Part shown: piece after piece, positions 7,911 to 19,196 of the stretch
Layout of the letters: every line of letters begins with the position of its first letter
How positions within the stretch are numbered: position 1 is the first letter of the stretch
Made by a program: the position numbers and the translations under genes
Notes under the pieces: generated by a model
Databases searched by the model: none
The model's input: the letters and a program-made list of their open reading frames with translations, nothing else
What the model was told of the DNA's origin: nothing
Assembly: GCF_041346945.1 (NCBI RefSeq)
Contig: NZ_CP166850.1
Span: forward strand, 6,432,501 to 6,496,500
DNA from: Amycolatopsis sp. cg9
GTDB lineage: Bacteria > Actinomycetota > Actinomycetes > Mycobacteriales > Pseudonocardiaceae
DNA length: 64,000 bases
Direction of reading: 5' to 3'

Positions 7911-9503
7911 ATGACAACGAACAGCTCGACCCACTCCGGTGAGCGGGCGGGCAGGCGGGAGTGGGTCGGCCTGGCCGTCCTCACCCTCCCGACCCTGCTG
8001 CTGGCGCTGGACATGAGCGTGTTGCTCCTGGCGATTCCGCACGTGACCGCGGATTTGCATCCCAGCAGTTCGCAAATGCTGTGGATCATCGACATCTACG
8101 GGTTCACCATCGCCGGTCTCCTCGTCACCATGGGGAACCTCGGCGACCGCATCGGGCACCGGAAACTGCTGATGATCGGCGCGACGCTGTTCAGCGCCGC
8201 CTCGGCCGTGGCCGCGTTCTCGACCAGCGCGACGATGCTGATCCTCGCGCGGGCGGCGCTGGGGATCGCCGGGTCCACTTTGGTCCCCACCGAAATGGCC
8301 CTGATCAGCAACATGTTCCGCGACGCGAAGCAGCGCGGCATGGCGCTCAGCATCTGGACGAGCTGCTTCATGGTCGGGCTGGCGATCGGCCCGCTCGTCG
8401 GCGGCGTGATGCTGTCGGCGTTCTGGTGGGGCTCGGTGTTCCTGCTCGGCCTGCCGGTGATGGTGCTGCTGCTGATCGCCGCGCCGATCCTGCTGCCGGA
8501 ATCCGAACGCGGGCAGGCGGGCGGCCGGCTGGACCTGATCAGCGCCGCGCTGTCGCTGGCCGCGGTCCTGCCGGTCATCTACGGCCTGAAGGAACTGGCC
8601 CGCGGCGAGTCGGTGCTCGTGCCGACCGTGGTCCTCGTGGTGGGACTGCTCTTCGGCACGGCGTTCGTCCGCCGCCAGCGCCGGCTCGCCGACCCGCTGC
8701 TGGACATCCGGCTGCTCGGCCGCCCCGCCTTCAGCGGCGCGCTCGGCATCCTCCTGCTCGGCGGGTCCACGATCAGCGGCATCCTGCTGCTGTTCAACCA
8801 GTACCTGCAGCTGGTGCTCGGCCTGTCGCCGCTGAACTCCGGCCTCTGGCTGATCCCGTACACCGTCGCGATGATGGTCGGGTACATGGTGGCGCCGCCG
8901 CTGGCGCAGCGGTTCCGCCCGGCGTTCGTGATCGCCGTCGGGATGGCCGTCTCCGCCGCCGGTTTCCTGCTGCTCACCCAGGTTCCGGTGACGAACGGGC
9001 TGCCGGTCACGGTGGTCGGCACGGTCCTCGCGACCGGCGGGCTTTCCCCGATGGTGGTGCTCGGCATCAACCTGGTGATCGGCTCCGCGCCGCCGGAGAA
9101 GGCGGGCGCGGCGGGCGCGATCTCGCAGACCAGCAACGAGCTCGGCATCGCGCTCGGGATCGCGCTGTTCGGCAGCATCGCGACGGCCGCCTACCGCGGG
9201 CAGATCGAGGTCCCGGCCGGGGTGCCCGCGGACGTCGCGACCGCCGCCCACGGCGGCATCGCCGAGGGCACGGCCGCCGCCCAGGGGCTGTCCGGGCAGG
9301 TCGGCAGCACCCTGCTCGCGTCCGTCCGCGAGGCGTTCACGAGCGGGTTCGCCGTCGCGGCGCTGGTCTGCGCGATCCTCATCGCGCTGCTCGCGACGCT
9401 CGCGCTGGTCCTGTTCCGCGACGTCCGCCTGGGCGGCGAGGAAGCCGCACCGGCCGACGCCGACATCACGCCGGATCAGGTGGCGGCCGACGAGGCCGCT
9501 TGA
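7911..9503 (+). CDS. MFS drug:H+ antiporter, 14-helix (EmrB/QacA type)
   Basis: A 530-residue membrane protein with about 14 hydrophobic segments. The DHA2 marks are L-D-M-S-V-L-L-L-A-I-P in helix 1, W-I-I-D-I-Y in helix 2 and motif A as G-N-L-G-D-R-I-G-H-R-K. ATG at 7911 was chosen because the protein match begins there; the frame upstream is open but reads as non-coding. The position, after the epimerase gene and on the same strand, suggests export of the glycosylated product or self-resistance. The C-terminal tail is acidic and alanine-rich. It is followed by a strong hairpin. Confidence 0.85.
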   Translation: MTTNSSTHSGERAGRREWVGLAVLTLPTLLLALDMSVLLLAIPHVTADLHPSSSQMLWIIDIYGFTIAGLLVTMGNLGDRIGHRKLLMIGATLFSAASAVAAFSTSATMLILARAALGIAGSTLVPTEMALISNMFRDAKQRGMALSIWTSCFMVGLAIGPLVGGVMLSAFWWGSVFLLGLPVMVLLLIAAPILLPESERGQAGGRLDLISAALSLAAVLPVIYGLKELARGESVLVPTVVLVVGLLFGTAFVRRQRRLADPLLDIRLLGRPAFSGALGILLLGGSTISGILLLFNQYLQLVLGLSPLNSGLWLIPYTVAMMVGYMVAPPLAQRFRPAFVIAVGMAVSAAGFLLLTQVPVTNGLPVTVVGTVLATGGLSPMVVLGINLVIGSAPPEKAGAAGAISQTSNELGIALGIALFGSIATAAYRGQIEVPAGVPADVATAAHGGIAEGTAAAQGLSGQVGSTLLASVREAFTSGFAVAALVCAILIALLATLALVLFRDVRLGGEEAAPADADITPDQVAADEAA

Positions 9504-10908: not shown

Positions 10909-12489
10909 TCAGGCGCAACTCGCCGTGGTGCCGGTGCCGGTCCCGGTGCCCTGGTAGCCGAACTCCGTCGACTGGCCCGGCGCGAGCGCGCCGTTGAACG
11001 TGACGTTCGTGAACCGGACCGCGCCGGTGTCCCCGCTGCGCCCGGCGTTCCACGCGGAGGTGATCGCGGCGCCGGCGGGCAGGTTCGCGGTGACCGTCCA
11101 GCCGGTGATCGGGGTGGCGCCCGCCGTGACGCGGACCGTCGTGACGAACCCGCCCGTCCACTGGTTCACCGACACCGCGGCGGTGCAGGCACCACCCACC
11201 GGTGTCGTCGGGGTGGTCGGTGTCGTGGGGGTCGTGGGCGTGGTCGGGGTGGTGGTGCCCGGGCCGTCGGTGAGCGACGGCGTCGTCCAGTCGCGCCAGT
11301 CGGCGAGGTTCCCGGACTTCTGGGCCGAGACCCGGAACGTCCCGGCGGCGCTGCCGGTCTTGAGCAGGAACTTCTGGATGTTCTCCTGCAGCGGGGTGCG
11401 CCACTCGGGCCGGGACGCGCAGTGCGTGCCGTCCTGGACGTCGGACCAGTAGCTGATGTTGCCGCCCGCGCCGAGTGCTTTGTAGACCTCCGCGCCGGCC
11501 AGCGCCGCGACGCTGCCGGACCGCGCGCCCAGCCAGTCGATGTGCGGGTTCTCCATGATGAACAGCCCGCGCGGCGCGACCATGGCGACCAGTTCGTGCG
11601 TGTCGACCGGCAGCGCGGCCGGATTGCCGGTGTACGCGCTGAAGGCGTCCCCGAACCACGGCTGTTCCCCGTAGGCGTTGCCCAGCGGCTGCGACCCGCT
11701 CTCGCCGGGGATCCCGCGCAGGATCGGGACACCGGCGGTCCCCGACTCGATCGGCATGGTCAGCGCGACGCGCTGGTCGAGCACGCCGACCGCGAAAGCG
11801 CCCTTCCCGTACCGCGAGCACCCGGTGACGCCCAGCGCGTCCGGTTTGAGGATCCCGCCGCCGGATTGTTCGACGACGTCGATGATCCGGCTCACGCCCC
11901 ACGCCCAGGCGGCCAGCAGCCCGGTGCTGCTCGACGAGCCGTAAACGCTGTAGAACGCGCCCTGTTTGTTGTTCCGCGGGGTGCCTTCCTTGCCGACCGC
12001 GAGGGGGTCGTAGGTGATGACCGCGGCCCCGGCGGCTTTGATGGTGGCGGTGTCCGCGCCGAATCCGCCGACCACGACGACGGCGGGGAACGGTCCCGTG
12101 CCGCCGGGCAGTTCGACCCCGGCGGAAAAAGCGGCGCTGCGCCCGTTTTCGCTGACGTTCACGGTGATGCTCGTGGCGGAAACGGTGCCGGTGACGCTCG
12201 CCGGCTTCGCGGGTTTCTCGCCGTAGATCGACCGTTCCGCCAGCTTCTTGATTTCCGCGCGCCGGCAGCGCCAGTCCGACTTCGCGGTGATGCGCGTGCC
12301 GTCGATCCTCTTGAAGGGATCGGGGAGTTTCGCCGACGACGGGAACGAGCCCGGCAGCGAGACCGGGCAGCCGGCACCTTCGTCTTCGACCGCCGCGGCG
12401 GTCCCGGAGGCGAACGTGACCATCCCGCCGACGGCGAGCGCCGTCGCCGCCAGCAGGACGAGGGCAGGACGGATCCGCGCACCGCGCAC
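10909..12489 (-). CDS. Secreted CE15 4-O-methyl-glucuronoyl methylesterase with CBM2
   Basis: A 526-residue exported enzyme. A signal peptide (about residues 1-34, ending A-S-G-T-A-A-A) is followed by a CE15 alpha/beta-hydrolase domain with the family nucleophile motif [10 protein letters not shown] Thr/Pro linker of TTP repeats precedes a C-terminal CBM2 ([10 protein letters not shown] to the final Cys). CE15 enzymes cut ester bonds between lignin and glucuronoxylan, and CBM2 binds cellulose or xylan. Upstream lie a CGAAACTTTCG operator like those of actinobacterial xylanase genes and a 39-bp inverted repeat. This supports induction by plant cell-wall material. Confidence 0.88.
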
Positions 12490-12560: not shown

Positions 12561-12597
12561 CGAAACTTTCGGAATGGTGCGGATTTCGAAAGTTTCA
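12561..12597. promoter_or_regulatory. Two xylanase-type operators (CGAAACTTTCG and near copy)
   Basis: CGAAACTTTCG at 12561-12571 is identical to the palindromic element described upstream of Streptomyces xylanase genes. A second copy, CGAAAGTTTCA (12587-12597), differs only at the last base and overlaps the stop codon of the encapsulin gene. Their centres are 26 bp apart. Recall of the published element is from memory. Confidence 0.65.
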
Positions 12598-13980
12598 GCG
12601 CGCGACCTCGACGTCGTCGAGAATGCCCAGCGCGTCCGGGACCAGCACGGCCGCGGAGTGGTAGGCGCTGACGAGGTAGGAGGTGACCGCGCGGTCCCCG
12701 GTCCCCATCAGCCGCACGTTGATGCCCGGCTCGTACTCGTCCGGGAGTTGTTTGGGACGCAAGCCGATCACCCCCGCGTCGTCCTCCCCGGTGCGCATCG
12801 CCAGGATCGACGTCGTCCCGGTGTCGGTCACCGGAATCTTGTCGCACGGCAGGATCGGCACGCCGCGCCAGGTCTGAACCCGTTTCCCCTCCAGGACAAC
12901 GGTATCCGGGTAGACCCGGTGGGCGGTGCAGGCCCGCCCGAACGCGGCGATCGCGCGGGGGTGGGCGAGGAAGAACTTCGTCTTCCGGCGCCGGCACAGC
13001 AGGTCGTCCATGTCCAGCGGTGTGGGTGGCCCGCTGCGGGTGGTGATCCGGTGCTTGAGCCCGGCGTTGTGCAGCAGCCCGAAGTCGGTGTTGGTGATCA
13101 GGTCGTGTTCCTGCCGTTCCCGCAACGCTTCCACGGTCAGCCGCAGCTGCTGTTCGAGCTGGTTGTGGGGCTGGTTGTAGAGGTCGGTGACGCGGGTGTG
13201 GACGTGCAGCACGGTTTGGGCGACGGCGAGTTCGTATTCGCGGGGTGCGGGGTCGTAGTCGACGTAGGTGCCGGCCAGGCGGGGTTCCCCGTCGTGCCCG
13301 GCGGACAGGTCGATGCTGGCTTCGCCCTTGGTGTTCTGCGGTTTCCGGGGCCGTGAAGCCGCTTCGGCCACGTGGGTGCGCAGCGATTGCAGGCGGCCGT
13401 TGAGGCGGGCGTAGGTCGCGGCGGGCAGGACGAGGGCGGTGACGCGGGTGGCGGCGCGGGCGGTGAAGCCCCAGGTGGCGTCGTCGCGGGTGAGCAGGTC
13501 GGCGCCGAGGTGGTCGCCGTCGGTGGCGGTGGTGAGGGCGGTGTCGTCGCCGTAGGGGCCGGTGCGGTGGCGGGTGACTTTCCCGTGCGCGATGAGGATG
13601 AGGGTGTCGAGCGGGGTGCCTTCGGTGAGCAGGGTCGCGCCGGGTTCGTATTCGCGGTGCTCGAACGCCTCCGCCAGTGCCCCGAGTGCGGTGTCGTCGC
13701 CGAAGCCGCGCAGGAGGGCGAGTTCGGTGAGTTCGGCGGGGACGACGTGGACGCGGGTGCCGGTGGTGTAGAAGGAGAGTTTGCCGTCGCCGAGGGTGTA
13801 GGTGAGGCGGCGGTTGACGCGGTAGCTGCCGGCGGGAACGTCGACCCACGGCAGCTGCGAGAGCAGCCAGCGCGGGGTGATGCCCCGCATCTGCGGGCGG
13901 GTTTTGGTGGTGGTGGCCAGGGTCCGGGCCGCGGGCACACCGAGGGACAACTGCACCGAGGGTTCGTCGGTGACCGTCAC
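12595..13980 (-). CDS. Family 2B encapsulin shell protein (second paralogue)
   Basis: A 461-residue HK97-fold shell protein of the EshA/family 2B type. The order is an N-terminal arm and start of the shell fold ([18 protein letters not shown]), a cyclic-nucleotide-binding-like insert (about residues 100-205, with L-I-L-I-A-H-G-K), then the main HK97 part ([14 protein letters not shown]). It closely parallels the upstream paralogue in the shell part. The insert is much more divergent, and its phosphate cassette reads [10 protein letters not shown]. The GTG start lies 2 bases after the upstream stop and gives MTVTDE, matching the paralogue. Two-shell family 2B compartments enclosing a 2-methylisoborneol synthase are known in Streptomyces, so a mixed shell is likely. 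Confidence 0.88.
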
Positions 13981-13982
13981 GG

Positions 13983-15386
13983 TCAGTGTTCCCGGCCGAG
14001 TTCGACGCTTTCCAGCACGGCCAGGGCGTCGGGGACGAGGACGGCGGCGGAGTAGTAGGCGGAGACGAGGTAGGAGATGATGGCCTGGTCGTTGATGCCC
14101 ATGAACCGGACGTTGAGGCCGGGCTGGTATTCGTCGGGCAGGCCGGTCTGGTGCAGGCCGATGACGCCTTGGGCTTGTTCGCCGGTGCGCATCAGCAGGA
14201 TGGAGCTGGTGCGGGTGTCGGTGACGGGGATTTTGTTGCAGGGCAGGATCGGGACGCCGCGCCAGGCGGGGACCTGGTGCCCGGCGAGGTCGACGGAGCC
14301 GGGGTAGATGCCGGCTTTGGTGCATTCGCGGCCGAACGCGGCGATGGTGGTGGGGTGGGCGAGGAAGAAGCCGGGGTCTTTCCAGACGAGGGTGAGCAGT
14401 TCGTCGAGGTCATCAGGGGTGGGTGGGCCGGTGCGGGTGGGGATGCGCTGGGCGAAGTCGGCGTTGTGCAGGAGCCCGAAGTCGGTGTTGTTGACCAGTT
14501 CGTGTTCCTGGCGTTCGCGCAGGGCTTCGACGGTGAGGCGGAGTTGTTGTTCGATCTGGTTGTGGGGCTGGTTGTAGAGGTCGGCGACGCGGGAGTGCAC
14601 GCGCAGGACGGTCTGGGCGACGGAGAGTTCGTATTCCCGCGGTTGGGTGTCGTAGTCGACGAAGGTGCCGGGGAGCTGGGGTTCGCCGTCGTGGCCGGAG
14701 GCGAGGGAGATTTCGGCTTCGCCGTGGTCGTTGCTGGCTGCGGAGCCGCGGGCCTGGTAGGCGTTGAGGTGGGTTTGGAGGGTGTCGGCGCGGGCGAGGA
14801 CGTCGTCGAAGGCTGAGCGGGGGAGGGTGAGGACGGTGCAGGCGGTGACGGCTTTGGCGGTGAATTCCCAGATGCCGTCGGTGCGGGTGAGGGTGGTTTC
14901 GCCGAAGTGGTCGCCGTCGGCGAGGGTGGCGAGGGTGGTGTGGTCGCCGTAGGCGCCGGTGCCGATTTTGGTGATTTTGCCGTGGGCGATGAGGAAGACC
15001 TGGTCGGCGGGGGAGCCGAATTCGACGAGGGCGTCGCCGGGTTCGTAGTGGTGCTGGGTGAAGCGGGCGGCGAGTTCGGTGAGGACGTCTTCGTCGTCGT
15101 AGCCGCGCAGGGGGGCGAGTTCGCCGAGTTCGGGGGGGATGACGCGGACGGTGGCGCCGGTGGTGGTGAAGGTGACGCGGCCGTCGCCGACGGAGTAGGA
15201 GAGGCGGCGGTTGACGCGGTAGGAGCCGGCGGCGACGTCGGTCCAGGGGAGGGCTTTGAGGAGCCAGCGGGTGGAGATGCCTTGCATCTGGGGGACGGAT
15301 TTGGTTGTGGTGGCCAGTGTGCGGGCGGCGGCCCGGCCGAGGCTCAGTGGTGCCTGTTCGGATTCCACCGGGTCGGTGACAGTCAC
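13983..15386 (-). CDS. Family 2B encapsulin shell protein (first paralogue)
   Basis: A 467-residue shell protein (EshA-like). The N-arm includes [12 protein letters not shown] and V-N-R-R-L-S-Y. The insert resembles a cyclic-nucleotide-binding domain (Y-E-P-G-D near residue 115, F-L-I-A-H-G-K, D-G-D-H-F-G-E). The phosphate cassette lacks the usual arginine-alanine pair, reading W-E-F-T-A-K-A-V-T, so ligand binding is doubtful. The rest is HK97 shell ([27 protein letters not shown]). GTG at 15386 was chosen for GGGTGG 8 bases upstream and the matching N-terminus of the paralogue; GTG at 15398 is an alternative. It follows the terpene cyclase gene directly, the expected cargo. Confidence 0.9.
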
Positions 15387-15416
15387 AGCGAAAACCACCC
15401 AATCATTCGAGGATTG

Positions 15417-16523
15417 TCAAGACTGGTAACGGGGATTCGTGGCGTGCCAGGTGAAGCCGCCACCCATCCAGGAACGGACCCCCACGAGGAAGCGCTGCAG
15501 CTCCGGGGACGGCACGGCCATCAGCTCGCGGTGGCCGTCCTCGAACTCGTGGACGATCTGGTTGTGCAGGGCGACGGTGGCTTCGACCGCCTCCTCGACC
15601 GGGCAGCCCCGGTCCGCGGCGATCTGCAGGACCATGTTGCAGACCGGTTTTTCGTCGGCCGCGTCCTTGGCCACCGAATGGAGATCGTTGACCAGCACCG
15701 ATGCCGTCCCGGCGCGCATCATCGCCTCGCGCACGCGCGGGTCGTAGTAGAACGGCGCGGCCAGCTCGTAGCCGCCGACGGCGTCGACGAGGGTCATCGA
15801 GGTGTAGAAGCTGTCGTGCTGGCGCGCCGCGAGGTACTCCCACGCCGGTGGGTAGCGTCCGGTGTGGCGCCACGCCGCGTAGGCGTCCCAGCTGACGAAC
15901 ATCGCGAACGTCGAGTAGCAGACCCGCTGCACGAGCACCGGCGAACCGTGCCGGCCCAGGTGCTCGGTCGCCGAGTGCAGCCCGACCAGGATCGGGTCCG
16001 CCCGCAGCGCTTCTTCCAGCGGTGGCGTGAACTCCCCGGCCGGCGCGACCGGGTCCATCGCCGCCATCACGAGCGCCAGGCGCGGCGGGAGCTCGGTGGG
16101 CGCCGCACCGAGCTCGCTGTCGTCGGCGTAGTAGTCGTCCGCCGCCCACCAGACCGCGTTCAGCTGCGCCGCGACGAGCAACCGGTCCGGGTCGTCGCAG
16201 TCGCTGTGGGCGAGCATCACCAGCCTGCCGAACCCCGCGCCGGCGATCTGCGCCAGGCCTTCACCGGTGAACCCGCAGTCCTCCGCCCACGCGACCAGCC
16301 GCCGGTCGACCTCCGCCGCGAGGGCGTCGTCGACGCGGCCCACCACCGGGCAGTACAGCGGCGACGCGCTGCCGTCACCCCACGGCAGGTACGCGTACGC
16401 CGGATCCTGCCCGGGCGCCGGCGCGAACTGCGTCGCGATCCGCGCCGCCGACGTCCCGAGGCCGAACGGTCCGGTCAGCAGCCCGCCCGCGTCCCCGGTT
16501 GTCCATTGTGGACACACGGTCAT
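15417..16523 (-). CDS. tpc: 2-methylisoborneol synthase (class I terpene cyclase), predicted encapsulin cargo
   Basis: A 368-residue cyclase that turns 2-methyl-GPP into 2-methylisoborneol. Metal-binding motifs are the aspartate-rich D-D-Y-Y-A-D-D and the NSE-type N-D-L-H-S-V-A-K-D. The surrounding sequence (R-Q-H-D-S-F-Y-T-S-M-T-L-V-D) is typical of 2-MIB synthases. The N-terminal stretch before the catalytic fold contains G-P-F-G-L-G-T-S-A-A-R-I; similar conserved motifs in the flexible N-terminus are thought to direct loading into family 2B shells. This N-terminus is short for the family, about 50 residues. ATG at 16523 was chosen for AGGGAG upstream; a GTG six codons earlier is possible. 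It lies 27 bp downstream of the methyltransferase gene. Confidence 0.9.
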   Translation of the reverse strand: MTVCPQWTTGDAGGLLTGPFGLGTSAARIATQFAPAPGQDPAYAYLPWGDGSASPLYCPVVGRVDDALAAEVDRRLVAWAEDCGFTGEGLAQIAGAGFGRLVMLAHSDCDDPDRLLVAAQLNAVWWAADDYYADDSELGAAPTELPPRLALVMAAMDPVAPAGEFTPPLEEALRADPILVGLHSATEHLGRHGSPVLVQRVCYSTFAMFVSWDAYAAWRHTGRYPPAWEYLAARQHDSFYTSMTLVDAVGGYELAAPFYYDPRVREAMMRAGTASVLVNDLHSVAKDAADEKPVCNMVLQIAADRGCPVEEAVEATVALHNQIVHEFEDGHRELMAVPSPELQRFLVGVRSWMGGGFTWHATNPRYQS

Positions 16524-16550
16524 GGTGGTCTCCCTGGGCACCGGCCCGGC

Positions 16551-17402
16551 TCAGACGCGGTCGGCGGCGATGAGCAGGTAGTGGAAGCTGCCCTCGCGGT
16601 AGGCCGTCAGGAACGGGTCCTCGATCCCGGTCGCGACCGACGACTGCGCCCGCAGCTCCCAGTAGGGGATCGTCGCGGCGGTCAGGTCGACGACGTTGAT
16701 CGGCACGAACCCGTTGGCGGACAACGCCTTGAAGTAGTCGCCGCGGGCGTGGATGTTGCAGATGTAGTGCTGGTCGATCTGGCTCACCGCCCGCGACCGG
16801 CCGCCCGTCACGTCGTTGTAGCACCCGGTGATGGTCACGTACCGCCCGCCGGGCTTGAGCTGCCGCGCGTGTTCGGCGAAGAGGTCGTGCAGGTCCACGT
16901 ACATCGTGCTCTCGTTGTTCCAGATGCCCTGGAACGCCCCGGTTTCGAAGCCGGTGTCGAGCATGTTCCGCAGGTGGTAGCGCACCGAGCCGTCGATCCC
17001 GCGCCGGCGCACGTGCTCGTTGGCGAACCCGACCTGCTGCTCGGAGATGGAGATCCCGTCGACCTGGCAGCCGAAGCGCAGGTGGGCCATGACGCTCGTG
17101 CCGCCGCGCCCGCAGCCGGCGTCGAGCAGCCGGTCCGACGGCGCGATCGGGCCGAGGTGGTCGAGCAGGACTTCGGCCTGCGCGGTCTCGAGCCGGTGCA
17201 TCTCCGCGATGATCGCCTCGTCGCGCGTCGCCTCGGGGGTTTCGAGGACGGCCGGGTCGTAGTCGCCGAGCCCGTAGTGGTGGTGGTACAGACCGTCGAC
17301 GTCGCCCAGCCGGAGGTTCACCGGATCCTTTTCCGCGTTCCAGTAGTCGGCGACCGACTGCTGGTAAGCGGTGCGGGCCACGGGCTGGTCGAGAGCGGTC
17401 AT
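16551..17402 (-). CDS. mtf: Geranyl diphosphate 2-C-methyltransferase
   Basis: A 283-residue SAM methyltransferase that adds the C-2 methyl group to GPP, the first committed step of 2-methylisoborneol formation. Family marks are Y-W-N-A-E-K-D-P-V-N-L-R-L-G-D near the N-terminus, Y-H-H-H-Y-G, motif I L-L-D-A-G-C-G-R-G-G, and N-N-E-S-T-M-Y-V-D. ATG has GAGGAG seven bases upstream. It is the first gene of the four-gene operon (methyltransferase, cyclase, two shell proteins). It lacks an obvious cargo-loading extension, so it probably works outside the shell or at its surface. Confidence 0.92.
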   Translation of the reverse strand: MTALDQPVARTAYQQSVADYWNAEKDPVNLRLGDVDGLYHHHYGLGDYDPAVLETPEATRDEAIIAEMHRLETAQAEVLLDHLGPIAPSDRLLDAGCGRGGTSVMAHLRFGCQVDGISISEQQVGFANEHVRRRGIDGSVRYHLRNMLDTGFETGAFQGIWNNESTMYVDLHDLFAEHARQLKPGGRYVTITGCYNDVTGGRSRAVSQIDQHYICNIHARGDYFKALSANGFVPINVVDLTAATIPYWELRAQSSVATGIEDPFLTAYREGSFHYLLIAADRV

Positions 17403-17657: not shown

Positions 17658-19196
17658 TCAGACGACTTCGAGGTTGGCCATCATGCCCATGTCTTCGTGT
17701 TCGGCGTTGTGGCAGTGCAAGAGGTACCGCCCGCGGTAGCCGTCGAACCGGGTGACGACCTCCACCGCTTCACCCGGGCGGAGCGCGACGGTGTCCTTGA
17801 GGCCGCCGTCGTGCGGCAGCGGCGGCCGCCCGCCGCGGGAGAGCACCCGGAACGCGGCGAGGTGCAGGTGGACCGGGTGGTGGACGTCCGCGACCAGCCG
17901 CCACACCTCGACGTCGCCGAGCCGGACGGTGACGTCGGTGCGGGCCGGGTCGAACGGCCGCCCGCCGATCACCCAGCCGTGCCCGCCGGGCACCTGCCCG
18001 GCGCTGAAGGAGAACTCGCGCACGCGCACGGGCGGGCCCCACGACGGCAGGTCCGCCGCCGGCACCGGCGGGACCCGGCTGTCGTCGGCCGCGCGGCGCG
18101 CGATCCGGAACGCCAGCACGTCCGCGGTCCGCCCGGCACCGAGCCGGTTGAGCAGCCGGACGCGGCCGCCCACCGGCACCCCCGCGAAGTCGACGACCAC
18201 GTCGTAGCGCTCGGCGGGCGCGATCGGCAGCGAGAGGTGCGTGACCGGCGCCGCGAGCAGGCCCTGGTCCGCGCCGATCTGCGTGAGCGGCAGCCGCCGT
18301 CCGTCGTCGGTGACGGCTTCGAGCTCGTAGTGCCGGGCGTTCGAGGCGTTGAGCAGGCGCAGCCGGTACCGGGCCGCGTCGGCTTCGTGCACCGGCCACG
18401 GCGCGCCGTTCACCAGGATGACGTCGCCAAGCACCCCGCCGAGGAAGCTGTCCCGCACCCCGGGCCGGTCCCGCAGCGTCGCGTCGACCGACGGGTAGTC
18501 GAGCGTCCCGTCCGCGGCGAACGCGCGATCGGTGAGCACCAGCGGCAGTTCGCGTTCCCCGGCGGGCAGGCCGAGCGCCTCTTCGGCGTCGTCGCGGACG
18601 ATGTGGAGCCCGGCGAGGCCGCGCCAGAGCGCCGGCGCGGTGAAGTCCATCCGGTGGTCGTGATACCAGAGCAGCGCCGGGCGCTGGTCCAGCGGGAACG
18701 TGTAGTCGCGCGTCCCTTCGGTGCGCACCGCCCGCGGGTCGGGCATGGCGTGGTGGTCCACCCAGCCCGGGGGCAGCACGAGGTCGGTCGGGTAGCCGTC
18801 CGACGCGGCCGGGGTCCGCCCGCCGTGCAGGTGCACCACGGTCGGCACCGGCAGCTCGTTGCGGTGGGTCACGGTCACCGGCCGGCCGCGCCGCGATTCG
18901 ATCGTCGGGCCGGGGAAGGTGCCGTCGTAGGTCCACATCGGCGTCCGGATCCCGGGCAGGATCTCCAGTTCCGCCACGCGCTGGGTGAGCTCGTAGCGGC
19001 CCGGCGCGACCGGCTTCAGGACGGCGGGCACGGGCAGCGGCACGGTGTACGGCGGAGGCAGCGGGACGGCGCTGCGGAGTTCGGCGCCGGTGACCGGCGG
19101 GCGCCGGGCCAGGCCGGCCGCGGTGGCCAGGCCGGTCGCGGCCAGCAGGCCGAACGCCCCGAGGCCGAGGACCTGGCGCCGGGTCGGCTCACGCAT
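17658..19196 (-). CDS. Exported multicopper oxidase (CotA/phenoxazinone-synthase-like)
   Basis: A 512-residue three-cupredoxin oxidase with a twin-arginine signal (T-R-R-Q-V-L-G-L-G-A-F-G). All four copper signatures are present: H-L-H-G-G, W-Y-H-D-H, H-P-V-H-L-H and H-C-H-N-A-E-H-E-D-M-G-M-M, the last giving the type 1 copper methionine. These enzymes oxidise phenols, bilirubin or metals with O2 outside the membrane. The gene overlaps the small membrane-protein gene by 8 bp, so the pair is co-translated. A LysR gene diverges from the pair. The substrate is not evident; copper resistance, pigment formation and lignin-phenol oxidation are all possible. Confidence 0.9.
   Translation of the reverse strand: MREPTRRQVLGLGAFGLLAATGLATAAGLARRPPVTGAELRSAVPLPPPYTVPLPVPAVLKPVAPGRYELTQRVAELEILPGIRTPMWTYDGTFPGPTIESRRGRPVTVTHRNELPVPTVVHLHGGRTPAASDGYPTDLVLPPGWVDHHAMPDPRAVRTEGTRDYTFPLDQRPALLWYHDHRMDFTAPALWRGLAGLHIVRDDAEEALGLPAGERELPLVLTDRAFAADGTLDYPSVDATLRDRPGVRDSFLGGVLGDVILVNGAPWPVHEADAARYRLRLLNASNARHYELEAVTDDGRRLPLTQIGADQGLLAAPVTHLSLPIAPAERYDVVVDFAGVPVGGRVRLLNRLGAGRTADVLAFRIARRAADDSRVPPVPAADLPSWGPPVRVREFSFSAGQVPGGHGWVIGGRPFDPARTDVTVRLGDVEVWRLVADVHHPVHLHLAAFRVLSRGGRPPLPHDGGLKDTVALRPGEAVEVVTRFDGYRGRYLLHCHNAEHEDMGMMANLEVV

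Follow-up and report, generated by a model that had tools for sequence, protein, structure and literature searches.

Evidence for concerted evolution of two-component family 2B encapsulin shell genes between a terpene cyclase operon and a polyprenyl transferase locus in Amycolatopsis

Introduction

The systems closest to the locus analysed here are family 2B encapsulin operons in which the shell genes stand beside the gene of a terpene cyclase (TC) or a polyprenyl transferase (PT) cargo. In the cargo proteins described in PMC8346489 that resemble 2-methylisoborneol (2-MIB) synthase, the consensus GPTGLGT lies within an unannotated and often disordered N-terminal region of 100-120 residues; short 2-MIB synthases are also known (PMC10520479). 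Two-component operons, which are defined in PMC12407261 by the presence of two shell genes within 10 kb together with a diagnostic sequence motif (motif 1), have been published with TC or PT cargo, and some of them carry both cargo types. In Streptomyces lydicus the two shell proteins, Enc1 and Enc2, co-assemble into mixed shells, and Enc1 alone forms none (PMC12407261). The subject of the present work is an operon in a stretch of 64,000 nucleotides (the window) from the genome of Amycolatopsis sp. cg9 (NZ_CP166850.1; window genome, G000), which encodes a geranyl diphosphate (GPP) methyltransferase (MT), a cyclase, Enc1 and Enc2. By itself this operon is of a known kind (PMC8346489, PMC12407261). 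What is new is the linked evolution of shell genes across two loci with different enzyme cargoes.

Two questions are open in the field: whether an encapsulin shell serves a single cargo exclusively, and for what reason some operons contain two shell genes. Gene conversion is known to cause concerted evolution, for example among rRNA operons. Because shells that are near-identical at TC and PT operons occur in species after species, and once more in another genus, and because some species have the second shell gene in one of the operons only, culturable soil bacteria offer a direct test of whether cargoes share shells.

Results

A second, near-identical shell pair in the same genome

Four shell genes of the window genome exceed the family cut-off, namely the pair in the window and a pair located 2.28 Mb away. 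The two pairs share a near-identical tract (Table 1) which begins 11 nt ahead of Enc1 and stops no more than 8 nt short of the Enc2 end; identity ends at the edges of the shell genes. Comparison of the rest of the 64-kb window with 30 kb around the second pair yielded no further alignment, the flanks being unrelated, and the two Enc1 copies differ by 1.1 bits in family score. The second locus has the order Enc1-Enc2-PT, in which the PT belongs to the encapsulin-cargo family NF041169 (450.6 bits, cut-off 450). Given that the same shell pair stands beside another cargo gene, a picture of one operon, one shell and one cargo is probably too simple.

Near-identity of this kind would also be produced if an assembler had placed one shell pair twice. 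In favour of this, the repeat does give assemblers trouble: a contig breaks off within the cyclase-side Enc1 in nine drafts, only one of which belongs to the 24 two-locus genomes described below, and G029 has runs of N within the shells at both loci, as a long repeat would probably cause. In seven genomes (G000, G025, G031, G042, G055, G065 and G068), on the other hand, a single contig of 9.5-11 Mb holds the two loci, with distinct flanks and copy-specific mismatches, and an assembly artefact is rejected as extremely improbable.

Concerted evolution within the genus

The survey covered 80 Amycolatopsis genomes. A shell match (E 1e-60) is present in 77 of them, a single cyclase in 69 and a PT over the cut-off in 70. 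Loci were taken from the 25 genomes with at least three shell matches, and 24 of these had two loci for comparison. In 11 of the 24, the two loci have in common a tract of 1,380 bp or longer with more than 95% identity; the tract is weaker or shorter in two, covers only 160 bp in one, and is absent in ten.

Concerted evolution is recognized when copies at orthologous loci cluster by genome and not by locus, and this is the pattern found. In the Enc1 tree, the copies pair by genome in all ten genomes with both copies in the tree (the second Enc1 of G044, L071, was omitted from the trees as its locus has no cargo label), and the approximately unbiased (AU) test rejects both a clade of TC-locus copies (p 8.8e-59) and a clade of PT-locus copies (p 1.6e-4). 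Pairing by genome is likewise found in five of five cases in the Enc2 tree (AU test p 1.3e-61). At four-fold sites the Enc1 copies within a genome differ by 0-5.1% (eight genomes), as against 9.1-41.8% between G000 and seven species, and divergence between the same species amounts to 11.5-30.8% for TC and 16.8-35.1% for PT. The flanks of the PT locus align on at least one side in all 17 loci compared; for the TC locus, alignment extends to both flanks at 92-94% in G042, G048 and G025, and some others give no more than short matches. This synteny of the flanks across species implies that both loci are old and orthologous. On these sequence comparisons, the shell genes are in concerted evolution in the Amycolatopsis subgroup that has both loci, and the pattern appears to be best explained by gene conversion.

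The within-genome near-identity could also have arisen if the shell genes had been copied to the second locus recently and independently in each species, without gene conversion. Such copying is rejected as very unlikely, because both loci are syntenic across species and the cargo genes are orthologous and have diverged between species to an ordinary degree. It would also require insertion on ten separate occasions, each time exactly at the gene ends.

Several individual genomes have unusual shell genes. The Enc1 copies of G006 (L048, L049) are identical to one another at four-fold sites and 41.8% different from the window species, the corresponding values for TC and PT being 30.8% and 29.2%; it may be that an Enc1 of foreign origin, or one that evolves fast, came to occupy the two loci there. 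The TC-locus Enc1 of G025 is split over two frames (L055, at about 8972-8994), and this genome may rely on its other Enc1 copy. Remnants of shell genes are found at a second locus in G030 (L058) and G040 (L068), and no cyclase match over the threshold is left in the G030 genome.

Elsewhere in the family, at least three shell matches are present in 35 genomes that belong to other genera, and DNA was compared within 19 of them. In one (G226), the Enc1 genes of a PT-gene locus and an MT-gene locus (L272/L273) are 97.9% identical over 1,425 bp; in another (G139), within-genome shell identity is 85.1%. The cyclase beside the MT of G226 (L155) has 39% identity to the window cyclase. The homogenized state is uncommon and arose at least twice, on each occasion linking a transferase locus with a methyltransferase locus.

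A possible shell pool for two enzymes

The reading to which moderate probability is attached, on the strength of sequence comparison, combines a two-component shell around the cyclase with gene conversion between the loci and a shell pool shared with the PT. According to this reading the methyltransferase would make 2-methyl-GPP, the cyclase would enter the shell through its N-terminal GPxGLGTSAAR block, and Enc1 and Enc2 would build a mixed T=1-type shell, as predicted from homology. Gene conversion would keep the shell copies at the TC and PT loci near-identical while the cargo genes and flanks diverge. The common pool of shell protein would then serve both cargoes, with Enc2 presumably supplied in trans wherever one locus lacks it.

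The distribution of Enc2 bears directly on the last of these steps. Enc2 is confined to the TC locus in G006 and G068 and to the PT locus in G031, G065 and G051 (the arrangement in G051 being pieced together from contig ends), and its presence at one locus only in five genomes suggests a shared shell pool. Since Enc1 of S. lydicus needs Enc2 (PMC12407261), an Enc1-only operon would, if the same is true here, need the Enc2 of the other operon. In addition, shell genes are absent from the stretch examined (about 6 kb on each side) around 14 of the 69 cyclases, and 13 of these 14 keep the candidate loading block. Both observations fit a single pool for two enzymes. In the congener G032, a single stretch has the order Enc1-Enc2-(PT-like)-MT-TC.

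A less probable alternative, which nevertheless deserves serious weight, is that an ordinary two-component TC operon encapsulates its cyclase only, that the second pair forms a separate PT compartment, and that the identity of the two pairs is a passive by-product of recombination. It accords with the presence of an Enc1 at each locus in the homogenized genomes, with the 55 of 69 cyclase loci in which shell genes at least partly adjoin the cyclase, and with the published two-component operons that have either cargo (PMC12407261). It does not readily accommodate the five genomes in which one of the two loci lacks Enc2, and near-identical subunits that are co-expressed would be expected to mix.

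A number of observations weigh against a homogenized and shared shell pool. Ten genomes of the genus have two shell loci without homogenization, and 17 of the 19 non-Amycolatopsis genomes compared have no tract of comparable length above 85% identity (G195 has one of 234 bp). Enc2 is less homogenized than Enc1 in G048 (12.9%) and G055 (14.3%) at four-fold sites. Passive gene conversion is possible, and conversion by itself does not imply shared use. The PT of the window genome has almost no N-terminal extension, its model match beginning at residue 14, and it does not have the cyclase motif, so that its loading is uncertain; it may be loaded by a route other than that of the cyclase. It resembles the geranylgeranyl diphosphate (GGPP) synthase IdsB and not a GPP synthase, and a direct pathway link to 2-MIB is thus not indicated.

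In G032, a cyclase-like match has one shell gene on either side and a transferase downstream of it (L062, 8019-10325), an arrangement that resembles the mixed TC/PT operons of PMC12407261.

A keto-to-amino composition shift in Enc1

The third codon positions of the window Enc1 consist of 0.11 A, 0.77 C, 0.11 G and 0.01 T, and GAA encodes 27 of its 27 glutamates and AAA 8 of its 8 lysines. Third-position G has a median of 0.39 among 165 shell genes or pieces of the genus and falls as low as 0.06 in L073 of the two-locus subgroup, and the 40 genes or pieces with values below 0.32 sit in 15 genomes: the 11 homogenized ones, G030 and G040, which hold relics, and G017 and G029, in which the genes are gapped or broken.

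The nature of this shift can be examined by comparing, per site, the replacement of keto bases (G, T) by amino bases (A, C) with the reverse changes, a contrast which is insensitive to GC pressure and to purine/pyrimidine bias. Changes were polarized by four outgroup genomes with nine rows for each gene, G006 and G044 being left out here and in the Enc2 and single-lineage comparisons below (the Enc1 of G006 is divergent). The resulting keto-to-amino ratios at positions 1, 2 and 3 are 3.65-, 3.87- and 6.35-fold for Enc1, and 0.97, 1.00 and 0.99 for PT; when positions 1 and 2 are pooled, the bias has p 6e-12 for Enc1 and p 0.81 for PT, shared ancestry inflating such tests. Ratios for TC, for MT and for Enc1 in two single-locus clades, polarized by separate outgroups, range from 0.39 to 1.90, and at position 3 they reach 1.90-fold for MT and 1.80-fold for the Enc1 of one single-locus clade; TC, MT and PT show no shift at positions 1 and 2. 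The behaviour of Enc2 is mixed: the clade-wide ratios are 1.27, 1.35 and 1.56, the Enc2 of G025 is homogenized without the shift, and G065, which has one Enc2, shows the shift.

Codon adaptation to high expression is rejected as the main cause, given that EF-Tu of the window genome uses GAA for 2 of 34 glutamates and AAA for 1 of 21 lysines, and that G and T are also lost at positions 1 and 2. Transcription-linked mutation is unlikely because the TC, MT and PT genes beside the shells show no shift at these positions. Homogenization alone is insufficient for the shift, since G006 (third-position G of 0.37) and G226 (0.47-0.49) have homogenized Enc1 genes without G depletion.

An ongoing drive is not supported by Enc1 changes private to single lineages, which are unbiased at positions 1 (keto-to-amino 12/239 vs 11/207 for the reverse) and 2 (8/208 vs 8/243) when polarized by outgroups. 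Majority polarization gives an opposite lean for pooled Enc1 (30/398 vs 88/771), a method that misreads retained outgroup states; at position 3 it gives 9/19 vs 64/327 for Enc1, a 2.4-fold ratio no greater than those of TC (2.3-fold) and MT (2.2-fold). Any drive would have acted mainly on inner branches.

One mechanism that could produce a shift of this kind involves the actinobacterial mismatch endonuclease NucS. This enzyme has a preference for the keto-keto mismatches G-T, G-G and T-T, with little action on A-C (PMC8228993), and it restrains recombination between diverged copies. A search of the window genome gave one match to NucS and none to the ATPase domain of MutS. If the heteroduplex had a constant strand polarity and were filtered by NucS, coding-strand A and C alleles would survive conversion and G and T alleles would be lost. 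The result would be a strand-polar keto-to-amino drive that recodes Enc1 and reaches even amino-acid-changing sites. That the shells of both cargo loci form one recombining unit in which NucS-filtered conversion brings about this strand-polar recoding of Enc1, with one pool for two enzymes, is considered improbable, and an initially low estimate was lowered further because the homogenized Enc1 of G226 lacks the shift. The unbiased private changes at positions 1 and 2, the small shift in Enc2 and the unshifted Enc1 genes of both G006 and G226 all count against it. The coding-strand loss of G and T, which is confined to the homogenized gene, is relevant to the role of mismatch surveillance in actinobacterial gene conversion, and if the mechanism were true, concerted evolution would become a keto-to-amino drive while the cell uses a common shell pool for two enzymes.

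The operon and its shell proteins

The operon occupies positions 12595-17402 of the minus strand, where four co-directional, tightly packed genes are transcribed in the order MT, TC, Enc1, Enc2 with intergenic gaps of 9, 18 and 2 nt (Table 1). All four products exceed the cut-offs of curated NCBI families, and the genome contains a single TC and a single MT above these cut-offs. The open reading frame of Enc2 that starts with ATG (576 aa) reaches back into Enc1; from its position and from protein alignment, the GTG that follows the Enc1 stop by 2 nt is the likely start.

Table 1. Positions in the window of the operon genes, their motifs and the tract shared with the second locus
Feature	Position	Strand	Evidence
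Near-identical tract, 14 mismatches/2,807 bp (99.5%), no gaps	12603..15409	.	Alignment with L009 12675-15481, C1:4.167-4.170 Mb
Geranyl diphosphate 2-C-methyltransferase, 283 aa	16551..17402	-	NF041943, 521.5 bits, cut-off 400
2-MIB-synthase-like terpene cyclase, 374 aa, probable encapsulin cargo	15417..16541	-	NF041167, 486 bits, cut-off 400
GPFGLGTSAAR block, cyclase residues 24-34, candidate loading motif	16440..16472	-	Conservation; published GPTGLGT consensus (PMC8346489)
Enc1, family 2B encapsulin shell, 471 aa	13983..15398	-	NF041163, 774 bits, cut-off 400
cNMP-binding-type insert of Enc1, residues 116-203	14790..15053	-	PF00027, 58.4 bits, cut-off 27.5
Enc1 diagnostic motif 1, VWK, residues 338-340	14379..14387	-	Motif defined in PMC12407261
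Enc2, family 2B encapsulin shell, 461 aa from GTG 13980	12595..13980	-	NF041163, 701.6 bits on the 12595-13944 piece, cut-off 400
cNMP-binding-type insert of Enc2, residues 97-179 (449-aa piece numbering)	13408..13656	-	PF00027, 45.9 bits, cut-off 27.5
Enc2 diagnostic motif 1, RRRK, residues 330-333	12982..12993	-	Motif defined in PMC12407261

Enc1 and Enc2 are identical at 285 of 461 residues, and in both of them an SrpI-like HK97 domain (PF19307, 429 and 461 bits, cut-off 22.8) is preceded by a PF00027 insert. The closest solved structures are 9bje for Enc1 and 9bix for Enc2, which the motifs suggest are the S. lydicus two-component pair of PMC12407261. At diagnostic motif 1, Enc1 has VWK and Enc2 RRRK, and the two shell genes lie 2 nt apart, well within the 10 kb of the published definition (PMC12407261). 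On the precedent of S. lydicus (PMC12407261), a mixed Enc1/Enc2 shell is plausible in the window organism.

An earlier note on this DNA had described a single operon of methyltransferase, cyclase and two shell genes, with metal motifs in the cyclase and with HK97 sequence and nucleotide-binding-like inserts in the shells. All of these elements are present: the four genes are co-directional and over their family cut-offs, the metal motifs are DDYYADD (residues 135-141) and NDLHSVAKD (285-293), and the shell domains are those given above. The interpretation of the locus as a two-shell family 2B operon with a 2-MIB-type cargo is upheld by the family models, the 9bje and 9bix matches and motif 1; the accompanying claim of an unusually small loading signal did not survive the comparisons described in the next section.

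Just downstream of the operon, 10909-12489 encodes a glucuronoyl-esterase-like domain (PF22244) and, after it, a cellulose-binding domain (PF00553); a multicopper oxidase is encoded upstream of the MT gene, at 17658-19196.

The cyclase, its candidate loading block and its probable product

In an alignment of 45 cyclase sequences, the residues D135, D136, D140, N285 and S289 are invariant. Within the candidate loading block of the same sequences, G29 is invariant and P25, G27, T30, A32 and A33 are conserved in at least 90%, the segment from P25 to A33 forming a conserved island. The AlphaFold model of the cyclase has a mean pLDDT of 80.7, with values below 50 for residues 1-35 and 37-44, so that the GPTGLGT-type block lies in a region predicted to be disordered. 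Only 23 residues precede it, and the reading frame is closed three residues above the start; the N-terminal region of 100-120 residues that is usual, though not universal, in such cargo is absent.

The N-terminus is shorter than that of the S. coelicolor protein, yet it is ordinary among relatives. A relaxed form of the block occurs in 68 of the 69 Amycolatopsis cyclases (L062, the cyclase between two shells, is not among the 69). Among the 120 homologue matches listed, the median length is 379 aa and 97 have the strict pattern G[LIMPV]G[TMS][SAT]AAR; of the 23 that miss it, 15 were inspected, 14 being near-variants and one having no block. Short N-termini with an intact GPxGLGTSAAR are thus the rule among both the genus cyclases and the listed homologues, and the reading of an unusually small loading signal is rejected. 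The putative signal is compact but normal.

The sole cyclase of the 69 without a GPxGLGT block is that of G001 (L196), which sits between a transferase and an MT, with no shell genes in the stretch.

The adjacent GPP methyltransferase points to a C11 product, which may be 2-MIB but might also be 2-methylenebornane or another compound.

Discussion: comparison with known systems

The window operon shares with the TC-type family 2B operons (904 in PMC8346489) a cyclase, a C-methyltransferase, a family 2B shell and an N-terminal motif of the GPTGLGT type. It differs from the operons described there in the 23 residues that precede the motif of its cyclase, in place of an unannotated region of 100-120 residues, and in the co-evolution of its shell genes with the pair at the PT locus. 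The second locus belongs to the PT-type family 2B operons with NF041169 cargo, but its shells are here approximately the same alleles as those beside the cyclase, and its PT is without the 50-100 disordered N-terminal residues reported for the PT cargo of PMC8346489.

The S. lydicus system of PMC12407261 resembles the window operon in having two adjacent shell genes, Enc1 and Enc2, which bear cyclic-nucleotide-binding domains (CBDs) and have an identical diagnostic motif 1. The S. lydicus operon is, in contrast, of the xylulose-kinase type, with unproven cargo. Neither a second locus nor a homogenized copy is mentioned in the introduction of PMC12407261 or in the opening parts of its results and discussion, and the terms ‘two loci’ and ‘paralog’ are absent from its main text. 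Among the titles and abstract openings listed in searches on encapsulins together with gene conversion or concerted evolution, and on conversion together with NucS and strand, none describes the concerted evolution or the composition shift for shell genes.

The pattern at the two Amycolatopsis loci is like the concerted evolution of rRNA operons in that identity within a genome far exceeds identity between species and stops at the gene borders. It differs in that the sequences linked here are shell genes, and that they belong to two operons whose enzyme cargoes are not the same.

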